From assembly GCF_000024405.1 (NCBI RefSeq), contig NC_013517.1, positions 1,488,001 to 1,552,000 of the forward strand: a stretch of DNA of 64,000 nucleotides, given 5' to 3'. Positions 1,137-45,700 of this stretch are shown one piece after another. Each line of letters opens with the position of its first letter. Within the stretch, counting starts at the first letter, position 1. A program made the position numbers and the translations under genes. This DNA comes from Sebaldella termitidis ATCC 33386. Its GTDB lineage: Bacteria > Fusobacteriota > Fusobacteriia > Fusobacteriales > Leptotrichiaceae. The notes beneath the pieces are model-generated. The model had not been told where the DNA came from and searched no databases. It saw nothing but the letters and a program-made list of their open reading frames with translations.

Positions 1137-1192
1137 AAATACAACATAGGAGCGGCTAAATTTTGGCCGTTCTTAGTTTTAAGGAGATAGGA

Positions 1193-3161
1193 ATGAATCA
1201 TTTAAATATAGATATAGAAACATACAGCTCTGTAGATATAAAAACTTCTGGAGCATATAAGTATGCCCAAAGTGGAGATTTTGAAATACTTCTGTTTGCA
1301 TATTCCTTAAATAACAGTCCTGTTAAAATAGTAGATCTTACTCAGGGTGAAAAAACTCCTAATGAAATTATAAAACTTTTGAATGACCCTGACTGCACAA
1401 AGCATGCATATAATGCAGCTTTTGAGTGGTGGTGTCTGAATCAGGCTGGATATGAAACAGATATAAATCAATGGCAATGTACTATGATTCAGGGATTATA
1501 TTGTGGGTATCCTGCAGGACTGGAACAGATAGGAAAGGCTCTTAAATTACCACAGGATAAAGCAAAGTTGACTACTGGGAAAGCACTAATAAAATATTTC
1601 TGTGTTCCATGCAAATCCACAAAAGTAAACGGTGGAAGATTACGGAATTTGCCACATCATGAGCCTGAGAAATGGCAGATATTTAAAGATTATTGTGTAC
1701 AGGATGTAGTCACAGAAATGGAGGTACTACGATATTTTGAAGAGTTTCAAGTACCTGAAAAAGAATGGGAATTATGGAGATTTGATGTTTTGATGAACTC
1801 AGAAGGTGTAAAGATAGACAGGCAGATGGTAGGAAATGCTTTATACATAGATAGTAAAGTATCAGCTGATTTACAGGAAGAAGCAAAAAGATTAACAGGT
1901 CTCTCTAACCCTAACAGTACAGCACAGCTTAAACCTTGGTTAATTGATAGTGGTCTTGATATAGACAATTTACAAAAAGGCACAGTATCAGAATTACTAG
2001 AAACTACAGATGGCGAAGTCAAAAGAGTTCTTGAAATAAGGCAGGAATTGTCCAAAACCAGTACTAAAAAGTATGTAGCGATGAGAGAAGGAGCCGGATC
2101 AGATGATCGTGTAAGAGGGCTGTTACAGTTCTATGGAGCCAATAGAACTGGGAGGTGGGCCAGGACGTTTAGTTCAAGTTCAAAATTTACCTCGTAATTA
2201 TTTAGATACACTCAATACAGCAAGAGAACTTGTGAAAAGTAGTGATCTTGATACTTTAGAACTATTTTATGGGAATATTCCGGATACATTAAGCCAGCTC
2301 ATCAGGACGGCTTTCATACCAGAAGCCGGAAAAAAGTTTATAGTAGCAGACTTTTCTGCTATTGAGGCAAGAGTCATAGCATGGTTAGCAGGAGAGGAAT
2401 GGCGACAGAATGTATTCAGAACACACGGGAAAATATACGAGGCATCAGCCTCACAGATGTTCGGGGTCCCTTTAGAGAAAATAGTAAAAGGTAATAAAGA
2501 GTATGAATTAAGACAAAAGGGAAAAATAGCAGAATTGGCACTTGGTTATGGCGGCAGTGTGGGAGCATTAAAAGCTATGGGAGCTGACAAAATGGGACTA
2601 AATGATGATGAACTTCAAGACATAGTAAATAGATGGAGAGCATCAAATAAAAGAATCTATGACTTGTGGCAGCAATTAGGCGGTGCTGCAGTGTATGTAA
2701 TTGAGAATAGGGAGGCAGTAAATATAAAAGGCTTAATACTGGCATATGAATATGATTTTATATCAGGTCTTGATTTTATGACTATAAAACTACCAAGTGG
2801 AAGAAAATTATATTATGCATCACCGGGAACAACACTAAGTAAATGGAATACAACTGCTATAACTTATAAAGGCGTAAATCAAACTACGAGGAAGTGGGAA
2901 ACACAGGAAAGTTATGGCGGAAAACTTGTGGAGAATGTGACGCAGGCTATTGCACGGGACTGTTTGGCAGAAAGCTTACTACGAATAAAAAATGCCGGAT
3001 ATAAGACAGTTATGCATATACATGATGAAATAGTAGTCGAGGCAGAAGAAAGTGTCACAGTAGACGAATTATGCAATATAATGGGACAGGATATCGACTG
3101 GGCTCCGGGACTTTTACTAAGAGCGGACGGTTTTGAAAGTTATTATTATAAGAAGGACTAA
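1193..3161 (+). pseudogene. Family A phage DNA polymerase, broken by a one-base frameshift
   Basis: Two overlapping frames encode halves of one protein. The first (1193-2197) starts at an ATG with a good AAGGAGA site and carries the 3'-5' exonuclease motif DIETYS at residues 7-12. A TTG 30 bases upstream lacks a proper ribosome site and is rejected. The second (readable from about 2162 to 3161) carries polymerase motif A (DFSAIEARV), motif B (RQKGKIAELALGYGG) and motif C (HDEIV). The protein reads smoothly across the joint as GANRTGRWA-GRLVQVQNLP only if one base is dropped near 2160-2162. Every catalytic motif is otherwise present, so the lesion looks recent, or is a sequencing error or a recoding site. 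Intact length would be about 655 residues. Confidence 0.85.
2151..2170 (+). other. Frameshift site in the DNA polymerase gene
   Basis: The sequence GGTGGGCCAGGACG gives W-A-R-T in the upstream frame, which then stops at 2197. Dropping one base of the CC pair at 2160-2161 gives TGG GCA GGA CGT (W-A-G-R) and joins the two frames. Moving from the first to the second frame needs a +1 shift. No RF2-like stop codon or rare-codon context is seen at the joint, so mutation or read error is more likely than programmed recoding. Confidence 0.75.
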
Positions 3162-3810: not shown

Positions 3811-6231
3811 ATGGAGAACAACAGGGATATAGTGATCAGTACTGGTAACAGCAGAAAGTCAATAGACTGGAAAACGGAAGTAATGAAGTGGTCTGATTTT
3901 GTTAATAAAATAAAAACACCGGTTCGTACTGATGAAACTTTAGAAGACTTTCTGGCGATGAGAAAACCGGATCAGGATGAATTGAAAGACGTCGGAGGTT
4001 TTGTAGGCGGGAAGCTTAAAGAAGGTAAGAGAAGAAATGTAAATATATTATCAAGGGACCTTGTAACTCTTGATTTGGATAATATAGAGTCCGGGAAAAC
4101 ACAGGAAGTATTAAAAAGAATAAGTGGTCTTAATATCGGATATGCCGTATATTCAACAAGAAAACATTCAGATTATCAGCCAAGATTAAGAGTAATTATC
4201 CCTGTTGACCGCAGTATGACTTCTGATGAATATGAACCGGTGGCAAGAAAATTAGGAAATATGATAGGAATAGGGCTGTGTGATCCTACCACTTTTGAAG
4301 TAGCAAGATTGATGTTCTGGCCGAGCTGTAGTTCTGACAGTATTTATATTAACGAACATGAAGATAAGCCTTTTATAAAGGTTGACTGGGTATTATCTCA
4401 ATATAATGACTGGAAAGATGTTACAGAGTGGCCACAAGTTCCGGGTTATGACAAGGTTAGGGAAAATCAGGTAAAAAAGCAACAGGACCCTACTGAAAAA
4501 GGCGGAGTAATAGGGGCTTTCTGTAAAGTATTTAATATATATGAGGCAATAGAAAGATTTATACCTGATAGTTATGAAATATGTGATGTAAAAGACCGGT
4601 TAACTTATACCGGTGGGTCAACTTACGGCGGGGCAGTAGTCTATGATGATAAATTTGTATATTCTCATCATGCAACGGATCCGGCAGGGCAAACTTTATG
4701 TAACGCTTTTGATTTAGTAAGACTCCATAAATTTGGTGCTCTTGATGAAGAAGCAAAAGAATTGACACCTAATGGAAAATTACCGTCCTCTGTTGAGATG
4801 CGTAAACTGGCACATGGAATTGATGAGGTTAACAATCTTATGATGCAGGAGAAATATCAAAAAGCTGTAGATAATTTTGATGTAGTTGAAAACAAAGAAA
4901 TGGATACATCATGGATAAAACAGCTGATAAGAGATAAGAATGGCAAGATTGAAAGTACAATAAAAAATATAGAAATAATATTGGAAAATGACCCCTACTT
5001 AAAAGGGAAAATTACTTTAGATGAGTTTGCTAACAGAAGTCTGGTGTTAGGAAAACTTCCTTGGGATCATTCAGAAGTTTTTGAGCCCAGAGAGTGGGAA
5101 GATGCCGACGACAGTGGTCTTAGAAGTTATTTAGAAACAGTACACGGCATAGTAGGAATGAATAAAATTTATGATGCCTTGATGCTTGTGACGAAAAAAT
5201 ATAAATCAAATGAAGTAAAAGATTACCTTGAAAGTTTAGTATGGGACGGGGTGTCCCGTCTTGAAACCTTACTAATAGATTATTTCGGAGTAGCTGATAA
5301 TTCTTATACAAGACAAGTTATGAAAGTATCTTTAACAGCAGCTGTAGCAAGAGCGGTAGGAAAAGGAGTGAAGTGGGATTATACGCCGATAATATACGGT
5401 CCTCAGGGGAAATATAAAACATGGTTTTTCGAAATATTGGGTAGTAAGTGGTTTAATAACAGCCTTGGAAATTTTGACGGGAAAGAAGCAGCTATAACAA
5501 TTCAGGGCTCTTGGATAGTAGAACTTGGAGAACTGGCGAGTATGGCTAAATCAGAGCTGAATGCAATAAAACTCTTTCTTACCAAAAGAGAGGATATATA
5601 CAGAGAACCCTTTGGGAGAAGAACGGGAAAACACCCAAGAAGATGTGTATTTTTTGGAACAACTAATGACTGGGAATTTTTAAGGGATAGAACAGGAGAT
5701 CGAAGATTTTGGCCAGTTGTAATTTTAGAGACTGAGCCTACAAAAGTAGTGCCTGTAGATTTACCAAAAGAACTGGATCAGATATGGGCAGAGGCATATT
5801 TTAACTATTCGGTAATGGGTCTTAAGCTCGATTTAGAAGGAGACGAAGCTAAAGCCATAGCTTTAGAAATGCAGCAACAGCATAGTGAGAGCAGTCCATT
5901 AGAAGGTATGATAACAGAATTTTTAGAAAAAGAAATACCAGAAGACTGGCAACGGAAAACAGTAAAACAGAGAAGAGATTATTTTAATAGCGGTATGGAG
6001 CCAGTTAAAGATAATACAAAAAAATATATAAAACGAGATAGAATATGCGCCTTAGAGATATGGAATGAATGTTTTGGCAGAGATCCGGGAAGTTTGAAAA
6101 GATTTAATACAAAAGAGATAAACGATATACTTGCCAATAATCCAGCATGGGAGAGAGGGAAAAAAGCAATAAGATTTGGAGAGTATGGAGTGCAAAAAGG
6201 TTTTAAAAAGAAAGATGATATCAAGAAATAA
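3811..6231 (+). CDS. VapE-type primase-helicase
   Basis: This 806-residue protein combines an N-terminal primase-like region with a C-terminal virulence-associated E (VapE) helicase domain. The N-terminal 200 residues have TLDLDN near residue 88 and YSTRKH followed by PRLRVIIP, as in archaeo-eukaryotic-type primases. Near residue 530 there is a P-loop variant, GPQGKYKT, then WIVELGEL (Walker B-like) and GTTNDWEFLRDRTGDRRFWPV, the VapE signature with an arginine finger. It probably primes and unwinds phage DNA at the origin. The repeat-rich non-coding block directly downstream is the natural candidate for that origin. The ATG overlaps the AAGGAGAAATAA end of the previous gene. Confidence 0.88.
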   Translation: MENNRDIVISTGNSRKSIDWKTEVMKWSDFVNKIKTPVRTDETLEDFLAMRKPDQDELKDVGGFVGGKLKEGKRRNVNILSRDLVTLDLDNIESGKTQEVLKRISGLNIGYAVYSTRKHSDYQPRLRVIIPVDRSMTSDEYEPVARKLGNMIGIGLCDPTTFEVARLMFWPSCSSDSIYINEHEDKPFIKVDWVLSQYNDWKDVTEWPQVPGYDKVRENQVKKQQDPTEKGGVIGAFCKVFNIYEAIERFIPDSYEICDVKDRLTYTGGSTYGGAVVYDDKFVYSHHATDPAGQTLCNAFDLVRLHKFGALDEEAKELTPNGKLPSSVEMRKLAHGIDEVNNLMMQEKYQKAVDNFDVVENKEMDTSWIKQLIRDKNGKIESTIKNIEIILENDPYLKGKITLDEFANRSLVLGKLPWDHSEVFEPREWEDADDSGLRSYLETVHGIVGMNKIYDALMLVTKKYKSNEVKDYLESLVWDGVSRLETLLIDYFGVADNSYTRQVMKVSLTAAVARAVGKGVKWDYTPIIYGPQGKYKTWFFEILGSKWFNNSLGNFDGKEAAITIQGSWIVELGELASMAKSELNAIKLFLTKREDIYREPFGRRTGKHPRRCVFFGTTNDWEFLRDRTGDRRFWPVVILETEPTKVVPVDLPKELDQIWAEAYFNYSVMGLKLDLEGDEAKAIALEMQQQHSESSPLEGMITEFLEKEIPEDWQRKTVKQRRDYFNSGMEPVKDNTKKYIKRDRICALEIWNECFGRDPGSLKRFNTKEINDILANNPAWERGKKAIRFGEYGVQKGFKKKDDIKK

Positions 6232-6718
6232 TATTTAGAAATGGTTAAAAATATAAGATTTATGTGTAACTTTCTATGTAACTAACTAGGTATTTTAATG
6301 AATTTTAAACCATATTAAGCAAATTAAGTAATACCTAAAATGTAACTTTCTGTGTAACTTACTAGTGATTTTAATTGAAAATAAATGATTTTAAGCAAAT
6401 TAAGCATTGAAAAAATGTAACTTTCTAAAGTTACAACTGGGTAGAAAGTTACAAATTGCTTGTAACCTCAAATTAGAAAGTTACATGAAAGTTACAGTAG
6501 AAAGTTACAGCTTTAATATAGTAATATCAGTATCTATAGAATATATGTAACTTTGTAACCTTATATTTATTAAAAGTATTGATTTAAGTATATTATGTAT
6601 ATTTAAGCAAATTATATATTTTGCTTAAATTGCTTAAATCCTTTATCTGAACATTCCATACGCGTGTACGTGTGAAAGTTACTAAATAGAAAAATAATTT
6701 TTTGAGGAGACATTTGAA
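6232..6718. other. Iteron-like non-coding block, candidate phage replication origin
   Basis: This 487-bp gap has no gene but is packed with short repeats. GTAACTTTCT or its core runs forward at 6266, 6342 and 6417, with shorter GTAACTT or GTAAC copies at 6278, 6354 and 6547. The reverse AGAAAGTTAC or GAAAGTTAC occurs at 6443, 6475, 6487, 6499 and 6674. Forward copies dominate the left and reverse copies the right. They meet in an inverted repeat, GTAACTTT-CT-AAAGTTAC, at 6417-6434. A second repeat, TTAAGCAAATTAAG, is found at 6315 and 6391, partly at 6603, and inverted near 6620-6637. The flanks are AT-rich. Lying between primase-helicase and nuclease/helicase genes, it fits an iteron origin or initiator-binding region. 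Confidence 0.6.
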
Positions 6719-7051
6719 ATGTTTAAAAATGAATTAAAAGAAAAAGATATTGAAAAATATTTGAGAGATGAGATAAAAAAAGTCGGAGGCATTGCTTATA
6801 AATTTGTCAGCCCGGGGAATGCAGGAGTACCTGACAGACTGGTATTGTTGCCCGGAAGATGGTCGTTTTTTGTAGAATTGAAAGCTCCGGGGAAGAAGAC
6901 AAGAGCTGTACAAGACAGACAGATCAGAAAAATAAGAAATTTAGATTTTTCAGTTTTGATAATAGATTCAAAAAAACAGGTTGATGACTTAGTAAAAATG
7001 ATAAAACACCATTTAGGAGTTGATAAAAACAATGGAATTCATACCACATAA
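6719..7051 (+). CDS. VRR-NUC domain nuclease
   Basis: This 110-residue protein is a stand-alone VRR-NUC (virus-type replication-repair nuclease) domain of the PD-(D/E)XK fold. The core is visible: GVPDRLVLLPGR, then FVELKAPGK, giving the D and E-x-K catalytic residues, followed by a conserved Q in the RAVQDRQ helix. Its likely role is cutting branched or flap DNA in phage replication, together with the helicase encoded next. The start ATG at 6719 has a TGAGGAGA site about ten bases upstream. It overlaps the helicase gene by 20 bases, so the two are probably translated together. Confidence 0.88.
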   Translation: MFKNELKEKDIEKYLRDEIKKVGGIAYKFVSPGNAGVPDRLVLLPGRWSFFVELKAPGKKTRAVQDRQIRKIRNLDFSVLIIDSKKQVDDLVKMIKHHLGVDKNNGIHTT

Positions 7052-8408
7052 TTATCAAAAATATTGTATTGACAGGGCTGTATCAGATAAAAGCCTAGGA
7101 TTGTTGTTGGATATGGGACTTGGAAAAACAATAATAACGCTGACAGCAATAAACGAATTGATATACAGCAGGCTTGATGTAGACAGAGTTCTTGTAATAG
7201 CTCCAAAGAAAGTGGCTGAATCTACTTGGAGCAAAGAAATAGAAAAGTGGGAACACTTGAGATTATTAAGAGTTTCAAAAGTACTCGGGACTTTAAAACA
7301 AAGAATAAAGGCTCTGAATACTCCGGCGGATATCTATGTGATTAATCGTGAGAATGTACAATGGCTTGTGGAATATTATCAGAATTCATGGCCTTTCGAT
7401 ATGGTTGTAATAGACGAGCTGTCATCATTCAAAAATCACCAGTCCAAAAGATTCAAAAGTCTGAAACTGGTCCGGGATAAAATAAAAAGAATTATCGGGT
7501 TGACAGGAACACCGGCACCGAATGGATTAATTGATATATGGACTCAGATCTATTTGCTTGATAAAGGCGAAAGACTGGAAAGAAATATAACAGCTTTCCG
7601 GGAAAGATATTTTAATTATACAAGATATGGTGATCAAGCTTTTGGAACATATGATTTAAAAACAGGATCCGAGGATTCGATACAGAATAAAATATCCGAT
7701 ATCTGTATCAGCATGAAATCAGAGGATTATCTGGAATTACCAGATATAAATTACAACAGAATATCAGTCGAACTGGATACAAAGGCAAAGAAAGCTTACG
7801 ACGAATTGGAAAAAGAAATGATACTTGAATTAATCGAAACAGGAGAGACAATAGATGTGACCAGTGCAGCAGCTCTGACAAATAAGCTTTTACAACTTAG
7901 TAACGGAGCTGTGTATGATGAAGATAGAAAAGTGCATGAAGTTCATAATTGCAAGATAGAGGCTTTTATGGAGCTCGTAGAAGCTCTAAATGGTCAGCCT
8001 GCATTAGTTTTTTATTCTTTTCAACATGACAAGGACCGAATAAAAAAAGCTTTGTCAAAACTAAAATTGAGAGTCAGGGAGTTAAAGACAGATCAGGATG
8101 TGACAGACTGGAACAACAGAGAAATAGATATATTACTTTCCCATCCTGCAAGCAGTGCATATGGACTGAATTTGCAAAGAGGCGGAAATCATATAATCTG
8201 GTTTGGATTAAATTGGTCATTAGAACTTTATCAGCAGGCAAATAAAAGACTTCACAGACAAGGGCAAACTGAAAAAGTATTTATACATCACCTGATAACA
8301 GAAGGGACAAGAGATACTGATGTAATGGCAGCACTTGGAGATAAAGGAGACATTCAGGAATCTTTGTTAAATAGCCTGAAAGCAAGAATTGATAAGTATA
8401 GGAGATGA
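7032..8408 (+). CDS. SNF2-family DNA helicase/translocase
   Basis: The 458-residue product is a compact phage SNF2-type superfamily 2 helicase. Motif I (DMGLGKT) is near residue 30, motif II is IDEL near residue 128, motif III is LTGTPAPNG, and the C-terminal lobe ends with QANKRLHRQGQ (motif VI) and VFIHHLI. It should use ATP to move along or remodel DNA. ATG 7032 is preferred, with GGAG 12 bases upstream; a TTG at 7020 sits directly on that site. VRR-NUC followed by SNF2 helicase is a standard pair in Firmicute and Fusobacterial phages. Confidence 0.88.
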   Translation: MEFIPHNYQKYCIDRAVSDKSLGLLLDMGLGKTIITLTAINELIYSRLDVDRVLVIAPKKVAESTWSKEIEKWEHLRLLRVSKVLGTLKQRIKALNTPADIYVINRENVQWLVEYYQNSWPFDMVVIDELSSFKNHQSKRFKSLKLVRDKIKRIIGLTGTPAPNGLIDIWTQIYLLDKGERLERNITAFRERYFNYTRYGDQAFGTYDLKTGSEDSIQNKISDICISMKSEDYLELPDINYNRISVELDTKAKKAYDELEKEMILELIETGETIDVTSAAALTNKLLQLSNGAVYDEDRKVHEVHNCKIEAFMELVEALNGQPALVFYSFQHDKDRIKKALSKLKLRVRELKTDQDVTDWNNREIDILLSHPASSAYGLNLQRGGNHIIWFGLNWSLELYQQANKRLHRQGQTEKVFIHHLITEGTRDTDVMAALGDKGDIQESLLNSLKARIDKYRR

Positions 8409-42729: not shown

Positions 42730-45700
42730 GTGAAAAAAAATAAAAAACTGTTAGTATTATTTTTAGCTCTTAACTCAATTTTGACATCTTATGCCGATAC
42801 AGCAGGCGGAACAGGTCTGTCCGGCAGTAAATATGAAAGAATGTATAATAATATAGTAAAAAATATAGAAAAAGGAAATTCTACACAGAAAAATTATCAG
42901 GTTATAGAAAATATTCTAAAAAAGAAGAATAAAGAATTAAAGGATTTATATCTGCAGGGGGATTATGTAGTAAAGCCGGAATATTTGGAATGGCAGGTAT
43001 TTTTTACAGGATTTTATGCAGAAAATGAAAAAGGCGATAATACAATGGAAAATGCTGATTATTATACTTCAGCAAGAACACAGAGCGGTAAATTAACAGT
43101 AAATTTAAGAATATATAATGAGCTTCTGGCGGCAGGACTGACTTCAAACCAGGTAGAGGCACTTTTTAACGGTGACAGGAATGTGATAAATTCTCTGACT
43201 GATGAACAGAAGAATATTTTTTATAGTCCGAGTAATCTTTCTGGTACTTTTAAATCATTTCATCAGAAAGAAGATCCTAATAATATAAAACTGGGGGCTT
43301 CGATACCAATAAAAGAAGTATTGGATTTTTCACTTGATCCTCAGATAAAAATAGTGGAAAAAGCAATAAACCCGATAATAGTAAATCTTCCAAATACAAA
43401 AGTAGAAAAAATAATGATAACAGATTTCAGAGGAATAACAGCACCGACACCGCAGGCACCTACGATTAATATTACTGTAAATCCTTCTGCTACCATTAAT
43501 TCACCTGTTATAAACTTTAATTTTAGTGCAGGACATAATGCGGGGGCTCCGATGAATCTGAGCGGAGGTGTAGTAAACCACGATACATATAATAATAAAA
43601 TAGTTTCAATGAATTATAACCGTGTTTTTACAATAACAGACACTTTTCATATTGTTAACAGTCCTGGCGGAAAAATGTTTTTTGCTCAGGGGACTGATAT
43701 AGAATTTACAAATTCAAATCCCAGTCCTGCAAGTTCATACGGGAGATTTTTTGCAGAAAACAGAAACAATGCTACATTACTTGCAAATTATGGGAAGATA
43801 ACAATATCAGCGGCTTCATCAGACGCATTTATATTTGGTGATACTGTGGATTCGGTTCTATCCGGAGGTGTACCGTTCAGTACTTCTGTATATAATGGGG
43901 GAACAATGATACTGAATGCTGCTTCTCATAACGGACAGGCGAGTATTCCGGGTGGTGTTGCTATGGCATATCTTTCCAGGGGTGATGATGCCAATAGCGG
44001 TGCGAAGCAGAGATACTTGGTAAATGGAATAAATGGTGTCATGAATATAAACGGTTGGGGAAATTACGGAATATTAATGAATCAGGTAGATAGTGAGCCT
44101 ACTTCACATAAAACAGAAGTAACAGAAGCGAATATAAATTTACTTATAAATAAAGGTAAAGTAAATATAAATGTAAATGGAAGACCAGGAGGATATACAG
44201 AGGGGAATGTAGGTATAGCTGCTTTTGCAGATAACACACTGGGTACTGGGAATGATAATTCGTTTGTTTTAAATGATAATGAAGGAACAATAACTTCAAA
44301 TAGTGGAAATAATATTCTTTTAAGACATAAAGGAACAGGTGAGGTTTGGAATAAAGGAGTAATGCTGATTAATTCGGGAAATACAATAGGGATTGACAGG
44401 GAAAACTGGCTTTATGCGGCATCTTCTAATCCTGGAAGTCTGGCATTGGGAGTTAATGATGGTGCAATAATTGTAACTGAAAATGCAGAAAATGTAAAAG
44501 CAGTATCTGGTACAAGCGATACAAAAAAACATAACAATACACAAAATACGGATAAAAAAATAATCATAAAAAATGGAGACGGTGTAACGGGCGGAGCTGA
44601 TTACGATAAAGATAACGCGGCTTCTTCTTCTATTACTAAGAATATAAGTAAAAGCAGTGCTGGAAAAGGCGGAAGCGTAAACGGAGATATAACTGGAATG
44701 ATGTCTACTGCACCGGGGATGTCAGCAGGAACAACAACTTTGGATAATGATCCTAATATTGATAGTATAATTGAAAATAAAACAACAACTTTCAGTATGA
44801 CAATAGCAGGGAAAACTTATAATTATTCCACACAGGATGGTGTCATATTTTTAGGAGGAAAAAATTCAGCCGGACTAGCTTCTGATGTAAGAAATATAGG
44901 TTCTTATAATCCTCAATTAGACTTGGTTACAGTGAGAAATGACATAGACGGAAAAATATTCATTTATTCCACAGGAAACAGTGCAAGTCAGTATACTATA
45001 GGGATAAATGGTCTATATTCAACAGTAGAAAATAAAGGCGGAATATTTCTGGGACTTACGGCACAAAGCGGTCCAATAGCAGCACTGGCTTCAGCTGTAG
45101 CAACTGAAGGCGCAGTTGCGACACCCGGGAATTATAACTATATAGGTATTTACGGAAAAGGAAGTAATATATCCAATACCGGATTTATAACTGATAAAGC
45201 TTCTGATGCTTTAAACTATTCTCAAAAGGCAATAGGAATCTATGCCGAAAATTCTAAAGTGAACGGGACACTAGTAGGGAAAGTGGAAAACAGCGGGAAT
45301 ATAACTCTTGGAATCGGCGGAAGTGCAGTTATAACTAAGGGATTAAGTGCAGCTGAAAAGATAGGACTGAAAAGTACAGGGGAAATCAGTGTGTCTGGAA
45401 ATGCTGTATATCAAGGAATCGGATTTACACTTGAAAATACTGATGCCGAAATTTCAAATAAAATAAACCTTTCCGGAGAAAATACGATCGGAATCTATGG
45501 AAAGAACAGCACTATTAAGGCAGGCTCACTGGAAATCGCCGGGAATAATATCGGGAAAAGTATTGGAATCGTGGGAGATACTGCAGTACTGGAAGTGAAA
45601 AACGGAGTAAAAATAAATCTTCTTAACGGCGAAAATAATATAGGTATTTACGGAAAAAATATTACCTATACAGACAGCATTACAGGAACACAGCCGGATT

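Follow-up and report, generated by a model that had tools for sequence, protein, structure and literature searches.

A putative SaPI/PICI-type replication origin beside vapE in a Sebaldella termitidis prophage and its covariation with the VapE C terminus

Results

Gene content of the locus

The window analyzed here is a 64-kb stretch of the Sebaldella termitidis ATCC 33386 genome (NC_013517.1, positions 1,488,001 to 1,552,000), and it is part of an integrated prophage. IMG/VR contains a 41.9-kb viral contig whose VapE and VRR-NUC are identical to those of the window, and an integrase-like gene is located upstream (L189 4584-5618). The surrounding genes encode DUF2800, an Enc34-type single-stranded DNA (ssDNA)-binding protein, a family-A DNA polymerase, VapE, VRR-NUC, and SNF2, and then terminase and portal.

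The gene for the VapE primase-helicase, the proposed initiator, occupies positions 3811 to 6231 of the positive strand (PF05272, E = 1.1e-74; PHROG 256, DNA helicase, E = 2e-302). On the same strand, it is followed by genes for a VRR-NUC-type endonuclease (6719 to 7051; PHROG endonuclease family phrog_93, E = 1.4e-30; Pfam VRR_NUC subthreshold, E = 0.03) and an SNF2-type helicase (7020 to 8408; PF00176, E = 3.5e-22). The original prediction had placed a repeat array between genes of these types, and the profile matches bear out its assignments.

The family-A DNA polymerase gene (1163 to 3161) is broken into two overlapping frames at approximately 2151 to 2163, and the polymerases of relatives align with this interval first in one frame and then in the next. 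The split may be a frameshift, a sequencing error, or a programmed shift. In VapE, the Walker A motif (residues 530 to 539, window 5398 to 5427) is GPQGKYKTW instead of the GPQGxGKST of the family. Gly535, which is nearly invariant in the family, is a tyrosine in the window VapE and in that of Bacteroides phage BF503P2 (L019). With its polymerase gene split and a tyrosine at this position, the prophage may be impaired, and its own replication is not to be assumed.

A repeat array fills the gap between VapE and VRR-NUC

The VapE and VRR-NUC genes are separated by 487 bp (6232 to 6718) with a G+C content of 23%. This gap contains eight exact copies of GTAACTTTC, three on the positive strand (6266, 6342, and 6417) and five on the negative strand (6444, 6476, 6487, 6500, and 6674), and these are all the copies found in the 64-kb window. 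The relaxed motif GTAACTT occurs 11 times between 6266 and 6682, in agreement with the predicted eleven or so core copies within 420 bp. When 300-bp intervals were scanned across the 64 kb, more than four copies of a 7-mer were found only in this gap, where the count reached 10.

The most frequent 8-mer and 9-mer of the gap occur 10 and 9 times, respectively, as opposed to maxima of 7 and 5 in 300 dinucleotide shuffles. The 12-mer TAGAAAGTTACA is present five times in the whole 4.49-Mb genome, every time inside the gap. Given a G+C content of only 23%, the repeats might be put down to chance or to AT-rich low-complexity sequence. However, the 8- and 9-mer counts exceed those of every shuffle, the 12-mer is unique to the gap, and arrays with other sequences occupy the corresponding gap in relatives (see below), so that the probability of this explanation is negligible.

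The canonical form of the iteron is approximately 10 bp long, 5'-AGAAAGTTACA-3'. Read in the 5'-GAAAGTTACA-3' orientation, the copies at 6265, 6341, and 6416 point leftward, as do a half-site at 6461 and a pair at 6546 and 6554; the copies at 6427, 6444, 6476, 6487, and 6500 and a single final copy at 6674 to 6682 point rightward. Three leftward iterons, then five rightward ones, are thus followed by the leftward pair, an AT-rich tract containing a palindrome, a CG box of alternating sequence, and, last, a single rightward iteron. The mirrored repeat directions of the original prediction hold in the main, but they are a simplification, since leftward copies are also found right of the center (6461 and 6546/6554).

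The leftmost iteron, TGTAACTTTC, is accompanied by a half-site, TGTAAC (6265 to 6282, negative strand), and the next one, also TGTAACTTTC, by the half-site TGTAACTT (6341 to 6360, negative strand). The latter lies inside a 64-nt direct repeat (6265 to 6328 and 6341 to 6404; 81%, with a start-to-start spacing of 76 nt). The duplicated unit makes up the left part of the array (6265 to 6404) and carries an iteron pair and a copy of TTAAGCAAATTAAG (6315 to 6328 and 6391 to 6404, positive strand). Besides these two exact copies, there is a third one of 13 nt at 6602. Much of what had been reported as a second, interleaved repeat family is thereby explained: the third copy lies in the palindrome of the AT-rich tract and the other two lie in the duplicated unit.

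The orientation switches at a head-to-head iteron pair, TGTAACTTTC/AAAGTTACA (6416 to 6435). As predicted, the meeting point is an inverted repeat, GTAACTTTCTAAAGTTAC (6417 to 6434), and it is exact. It is followed by an iteron, TAGAAAGTTACA (6442 to 6453, positive strand), the half-site TGTAAC (6461 to 6466, negative strand), and three tandem iterons, TAGAAAGTTACA, GAAAGTTACA, and TAGAAAGTTACA (6474 to 6509, positive strand). The leftward pair, TGTAACTTTGTAAC (6546 to 6559, negative strand), which has a counterpart in the same place in many relatives, adjoins the AT-rich tract (6560 to 6640). This tract, the proposed unwinding element, contains the inverted repeat ATTTAAGCAAA/TTTGCTTAAAT and a tandem GCTTAAAT, which sits within an 11-bp inverted repeat. 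The CG box, CATACGCGTGTACGTGT (6657 to 6673), consists mostly of alternating purines and pyrimidines, and relatives have an ACGCGCG/TACGCGT-type counterpart. The last iteron, GAAAGTTAC (6674 to 6682, positive strand), is located right of the AT tract, directly before the ribosome-binding site of VRR-NUC.

A search of Rfam with positions 6000 to 6900 returned no match, even at E ≤ 1. GC-skew, which had been proposed as a check on the origin, does not switch at the gap; from about -5.8 kb on, it keeps a positive sign throughout on the transcribed strand. Because this uniform sign runs along the direction of transcription, the skew neither supports nor contradicts an origin here.

Arrays are common downstream of VapE

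With a VapE alignment as the query, we collected 177 VapE loci, 162 of which had a recognizable VRR-NUC downstream; a single VapE sequence had recovered few loci in viral contigs and none in genome contigs. The collection yielded 172 usable gaps from prophages and phages. An array was considered significant if the copy number of a 7-mer exceeded that in each of 60 shuffles. By this test, 139 of the 172 VapE-downstream gaps contained a significant array and 33 did not. Over all 172 gaps, the best 7-mer was found on average in 6.0 copies, as opposed to 2.1 after shuffling and 2.2 in VapE coding sequence of equal length. The original prediction had named a lack of repeats here in related phages as its refutation; the outcome is in its favor.

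The repeats vary by locus and include GTTACA, GTTGACA, GTTTACA, GTATACA, GTCAACA, GGCAACA, GTTCC, and others, with a form of roughly AGAA(A)GT..ACA common to many of them. Most relatives have the same block order, although nearly palindromic motifs leave the orientation call ambiguous. Their AT fraction peaks at 0.78 to 0.79, approximately 105 to 135 bp upstream of the VRR-NUC match. Inverted repeats whose arms reach at least 9 are more common in their gaps than in shuffles (0.25 versus 0.06). CGCCTA was found in 44 of 102 gaps (2 in shuffles), TATACGC in 33 (1 in shuffles), and ACGCGCG in 24 (1 in shuffles). CGCCTA is often tandem and near the AT tract and the CG box, for example, in L118, L125, and L135. 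The corresponding elements of the window are the tandem GCTTAAAT and CATACGCGTGTACGTGT.

Further afield, Paenibacillus phage GaryLarson has nine copies of CTGCAAC and Corynebacterium phage CL31 nine copies of GGGACAA. A VapE relative in Streptococcus satellite phage Javan257 is accompanied by five copies of TGCTACA in the same place. No array was found after VapE in Bacteroides phage BC679P5 or in BF503P2, where VRR-NUC directly follows VapE. The four VRR-NUC loci that lack VapE (L008 to L011) had no array either; thus, the array accompanies VapE and not VRR-NUC.

Predicted structure of VapE

The N-terminal part of VapE is an AEP-like primase with invariant D88/D90 and H119, and residues from approximately 470 to 690 comprise a D5-like AAA+ helicase. 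The AlphaFold model (61 sequences; pLDDT, 89.9) contains helices at residues 747 to 754 and 764 to 776, followed by a strand-rich wing at 780 to 800. This order of elements, from which we take the name, fits a winged helix; the predicted domain (residues 741 to 800) is encoded by positions 6031 to 6210 of the positive strand.

The best structural match of the model was PriRep1 with double-stranded DNA (7pds; Z = 34.9 over residues 366 to 806). PriRep1, described as "similar to D. nodosus vapE," is the closest solved relative of the helicase and C-terminal part of VapE, with 35% identity; its solved chain of 477 residues aligns from VapE residue 366 on and leaves the N-terminal primase part uncovered. 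A second region, residues 4 to 198, matched the AEP domain of cyanophage S-2L PrimPol (Z = 10.1). Weaker matches were to NrS-1, the SaPI5 primase-helicase, poxvirus D5/E5, and papillomavirus E1.

An 84-residue family, PHROG 22020, matches the C-terminal domain of VapE alone (residues 737 to 801, window 6019 to 6213, E = 1.7e-7). Judging from this match, the family may represent free-standing iteron-binding proteins of other phages.

Iterons covary with the C-terminal wing of VapE

For 122 VapE proteins less than 90% identical to each other, iteron similarity was compared with the similarity of sliding 30-residue VapE segments, with whole-protein identity partialled out. Shared ancestry is only partly removable from such association statistics, among which the last segment, residues 771 to 800, gave the highest partial rho, 0.250 (0.003 ± 0.032 in permutations). 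The value for the overlapping segment 761 to 790 was 0.191, and segments that did not overlap 771 to 800 reached at most 0.13.

With neighbors capped at 60% overall identity, residues 776 to 800 were the best region for finding the right 7-mer. The 7-mer taken from the locus nearest in these residues was present in 1.46 copies per gap, compared to 0.41 with a random neighbor and 0.27 to 0.64 when the neighbor was chosen by regions not in the C-terminal domain. The wing-nearest neighbor was not clearly better than other regions at predicting the repeats of gaps in which no array had been detected.

Among pairs more than 60% identical, a difference at residue 794 was seen in 96% of those with different iterons and in 45% of those with the same iterons. 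This residue, the x of YGxQ(K/R)GF, is V with TGTAACA/GTTAC-type repeats, R with GTCAACA (all four loci with that 7-mer), K with GGCAACA (three of three) and with GTTCC-type repeats, N with GTAG, and W with GTGACAA (two of two), pairings that are suggestive of a link between residue and iteron type. In a Bacillus-type subgroup (YGxVKG), K or R was found by inspection with GTAGAC or GTTGAC, and L mostly with GTATAC. In agreement with the covariation, two loci, L028 and L014, are natural near-chimeras: their VapE residues 1 to 360 are 93% identical, the C-terminal parts are 52% identical, and the iterons differ.

The ranking of individual columns depended on how ancestry was handled. Residues 561, 788, and 605 came first and 794 fifth in one ranking; 794 was first among pairs more than 60% identical; and 786 and 785 were among the top on independent pairs, where no single VapE column survived correction. 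Because the ranking shifts in this way, we relied on the segment rather than on one residue. Together, the covariation and the nearest-neighbor prediction point to residues 771 to 800 of VapE, placed by the model in the wing, as the putative iteron reader. An origin recognized by a neighboring protein had been predicted; VapE is the favored candidate, since the array accompanies VapE and covaries with its C-terminal domain.

The repeats could instead form an operator array through which a phage transcription regulator, or VapE as an autorepressor, controls the VRR-NUC/SNF2 operon. In favor of this reading, approximately 20 bp separate the last copy from the VRR-NUC ribosome site downstream of it, and autoregulation is common among iteron systems. 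However, a promoter and terminator scan of the gap gave nothing above shuffles, and promoter-like matches were fewer than in shuffles (2 versus 4.8). In addition, the array accompanies VapE rather than VRR-NUC, its sequence covaries with VapE, and some 12 sites plus an AT tract are more than an operator usually needs. We therefore consider an operator array unlikely.

Discussion

The Rep proteins of SaPIs recognize iterons directly downstream of their own genes via a C-terminal domain (PMC7581432). PICI origins have an AT-rich region between two sets of iterons, and pri-rep-ori is able to replicate in plasmid form (PMC6092414). The locus resembles the pri-rep-ori replicons of SaPIbov1, SaPI1, SaPI5, EfCIV583, and EcCICFT073 in having a primase-helicase initiator (VapE-like in Pfam, PHROG 256, the 7pds match, and the predicted winged helix at approximately 741 to 800), an array (6265 to 6682) directly downstream of the initiator stop at 6231, and iteron sets on both sides of an AT tract (6560 to 6640), although the right set is minimal here, with one near-full iteron (6674). 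Recognition by the C-terminal domain would be a further likeness, suggested here by the covariation at residues 771 to 800. In contrast to those replicons, the array belongs to a temperate phage that also encodes a family-A polymerase, an ssDNA-binding protein, VRR-NUC, and an SNF2 helicase of its own. The array is further distinguished by an additional leftward pair, the CG box, and the last iteron, which adjoins the ribosome site of the next gene.

A looser parallel is the Cch2 helicase of SCCmec with its putative origin, where the C-terminal domain (residues 400 to 538) binds direct repeats downstream of the gene (PMC7581432). That system is not a phage, has only three 5-nt repeats, and uses a separate polymerase-SSB pair as the primase.

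On the sequence features accessible to computation, the window array is filed as a putative SaPI/PICI-type Rep-iteron origin on a temperate phage. We are confident, short of certainty, that the gap is such a replication origin and is bound by the C-terminal domain of VapE, and VapE very probably docks at the repeats to start copying the viral DNA. Our search of the open-access literature, with most subscription papers outside its reach, found no description of a VapE-phage origin.

Iteron-like arrays also serve partition, incompatibility, recombination, and packaging functions in plasmids, and another phage protein might bind this one as a partition/incompatibility site or a recombination/packaging site. 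However, the prophage, which has the integrase-like gene mentioned above, belongs to the integrating type; no partition gene was noticed adjoining the array; and in most relatives the array lies beside the initiator gene and covaries with it. This alternative appears even less probable than an operator array.

Two other origin types were considered and rejected. A lambda-type origin has its iterons inside the initiator gene, but all copies of GTAACTTTC are noncoding and the VapE coding control contains no array. An iteron plasmid origin with a Rep_3 or RepA_N initiator lacking a helicase domain does not fit either, as Pfam finds only VapE-like/DUF5906 in the adjoining initiator.

If the gap is a VapE-dependent origin, we infer that binding, melting, loading, and priming proceed as follows. 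The C-terminal winged helix of VapE would bind the approximately 10-bp iterons just downstream of its own gene. Once bound to the oppositely oriented iteron blocks, VapE would form helicase rings next to the AT-rich tract, which would melt, and the AAA+ part would be loaded and unwind the DNA. The N-terminal primase-like domain would then prime synthesis, and the phage family-A polymerase would extend the primers with the ssDNA-binding protein. Paired family-A polymerase and SSB act as primases on mobile elements (PMC10061031); by analogy, the polymerase could also be involved in the priming step here. With iteron and wing sequences changing together, initiation by each phage would be confined to its own origin.

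The wing-iteron covariation is a more interesting part of the finding than membership in a class of origins. With this locus, a widespread prophage replication module gains a concrete origin candidate and a link to the SaPI/PICI replicons. The many natural iteron dialects, each with its short wing sequence, make up a data set for DNA choice by D5/VapE-type initiators, and they suggest how the replication of coresident phages and satellites could be kept apart. More speculatively, and with somewhat less than even confidence, we propose that VapE-type phage initiators make up a large and rapidly diversifying collection of matched wing-iteron pairs whose preference is at least partly readable from residues 785, 786, and 794, in which case iteron preference could be predictable from the protein sequence. 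Under the same proposal, the conserved elements other than iterons, tandem CGCCTAA and a TATACGCG box, would be a second site, perhaps for a strand start by the primase domain.

In Bacteroides phage BF503P2 (L190, OP172671.1), 14 copies of TGGCA/TGCCA were found in 300 bp of noncoding sequence (44901 to 45161), compared to a mean of 0.84. This cluster, located 15 kb from the VapE gene of the phage, is a candidate relocated origin.
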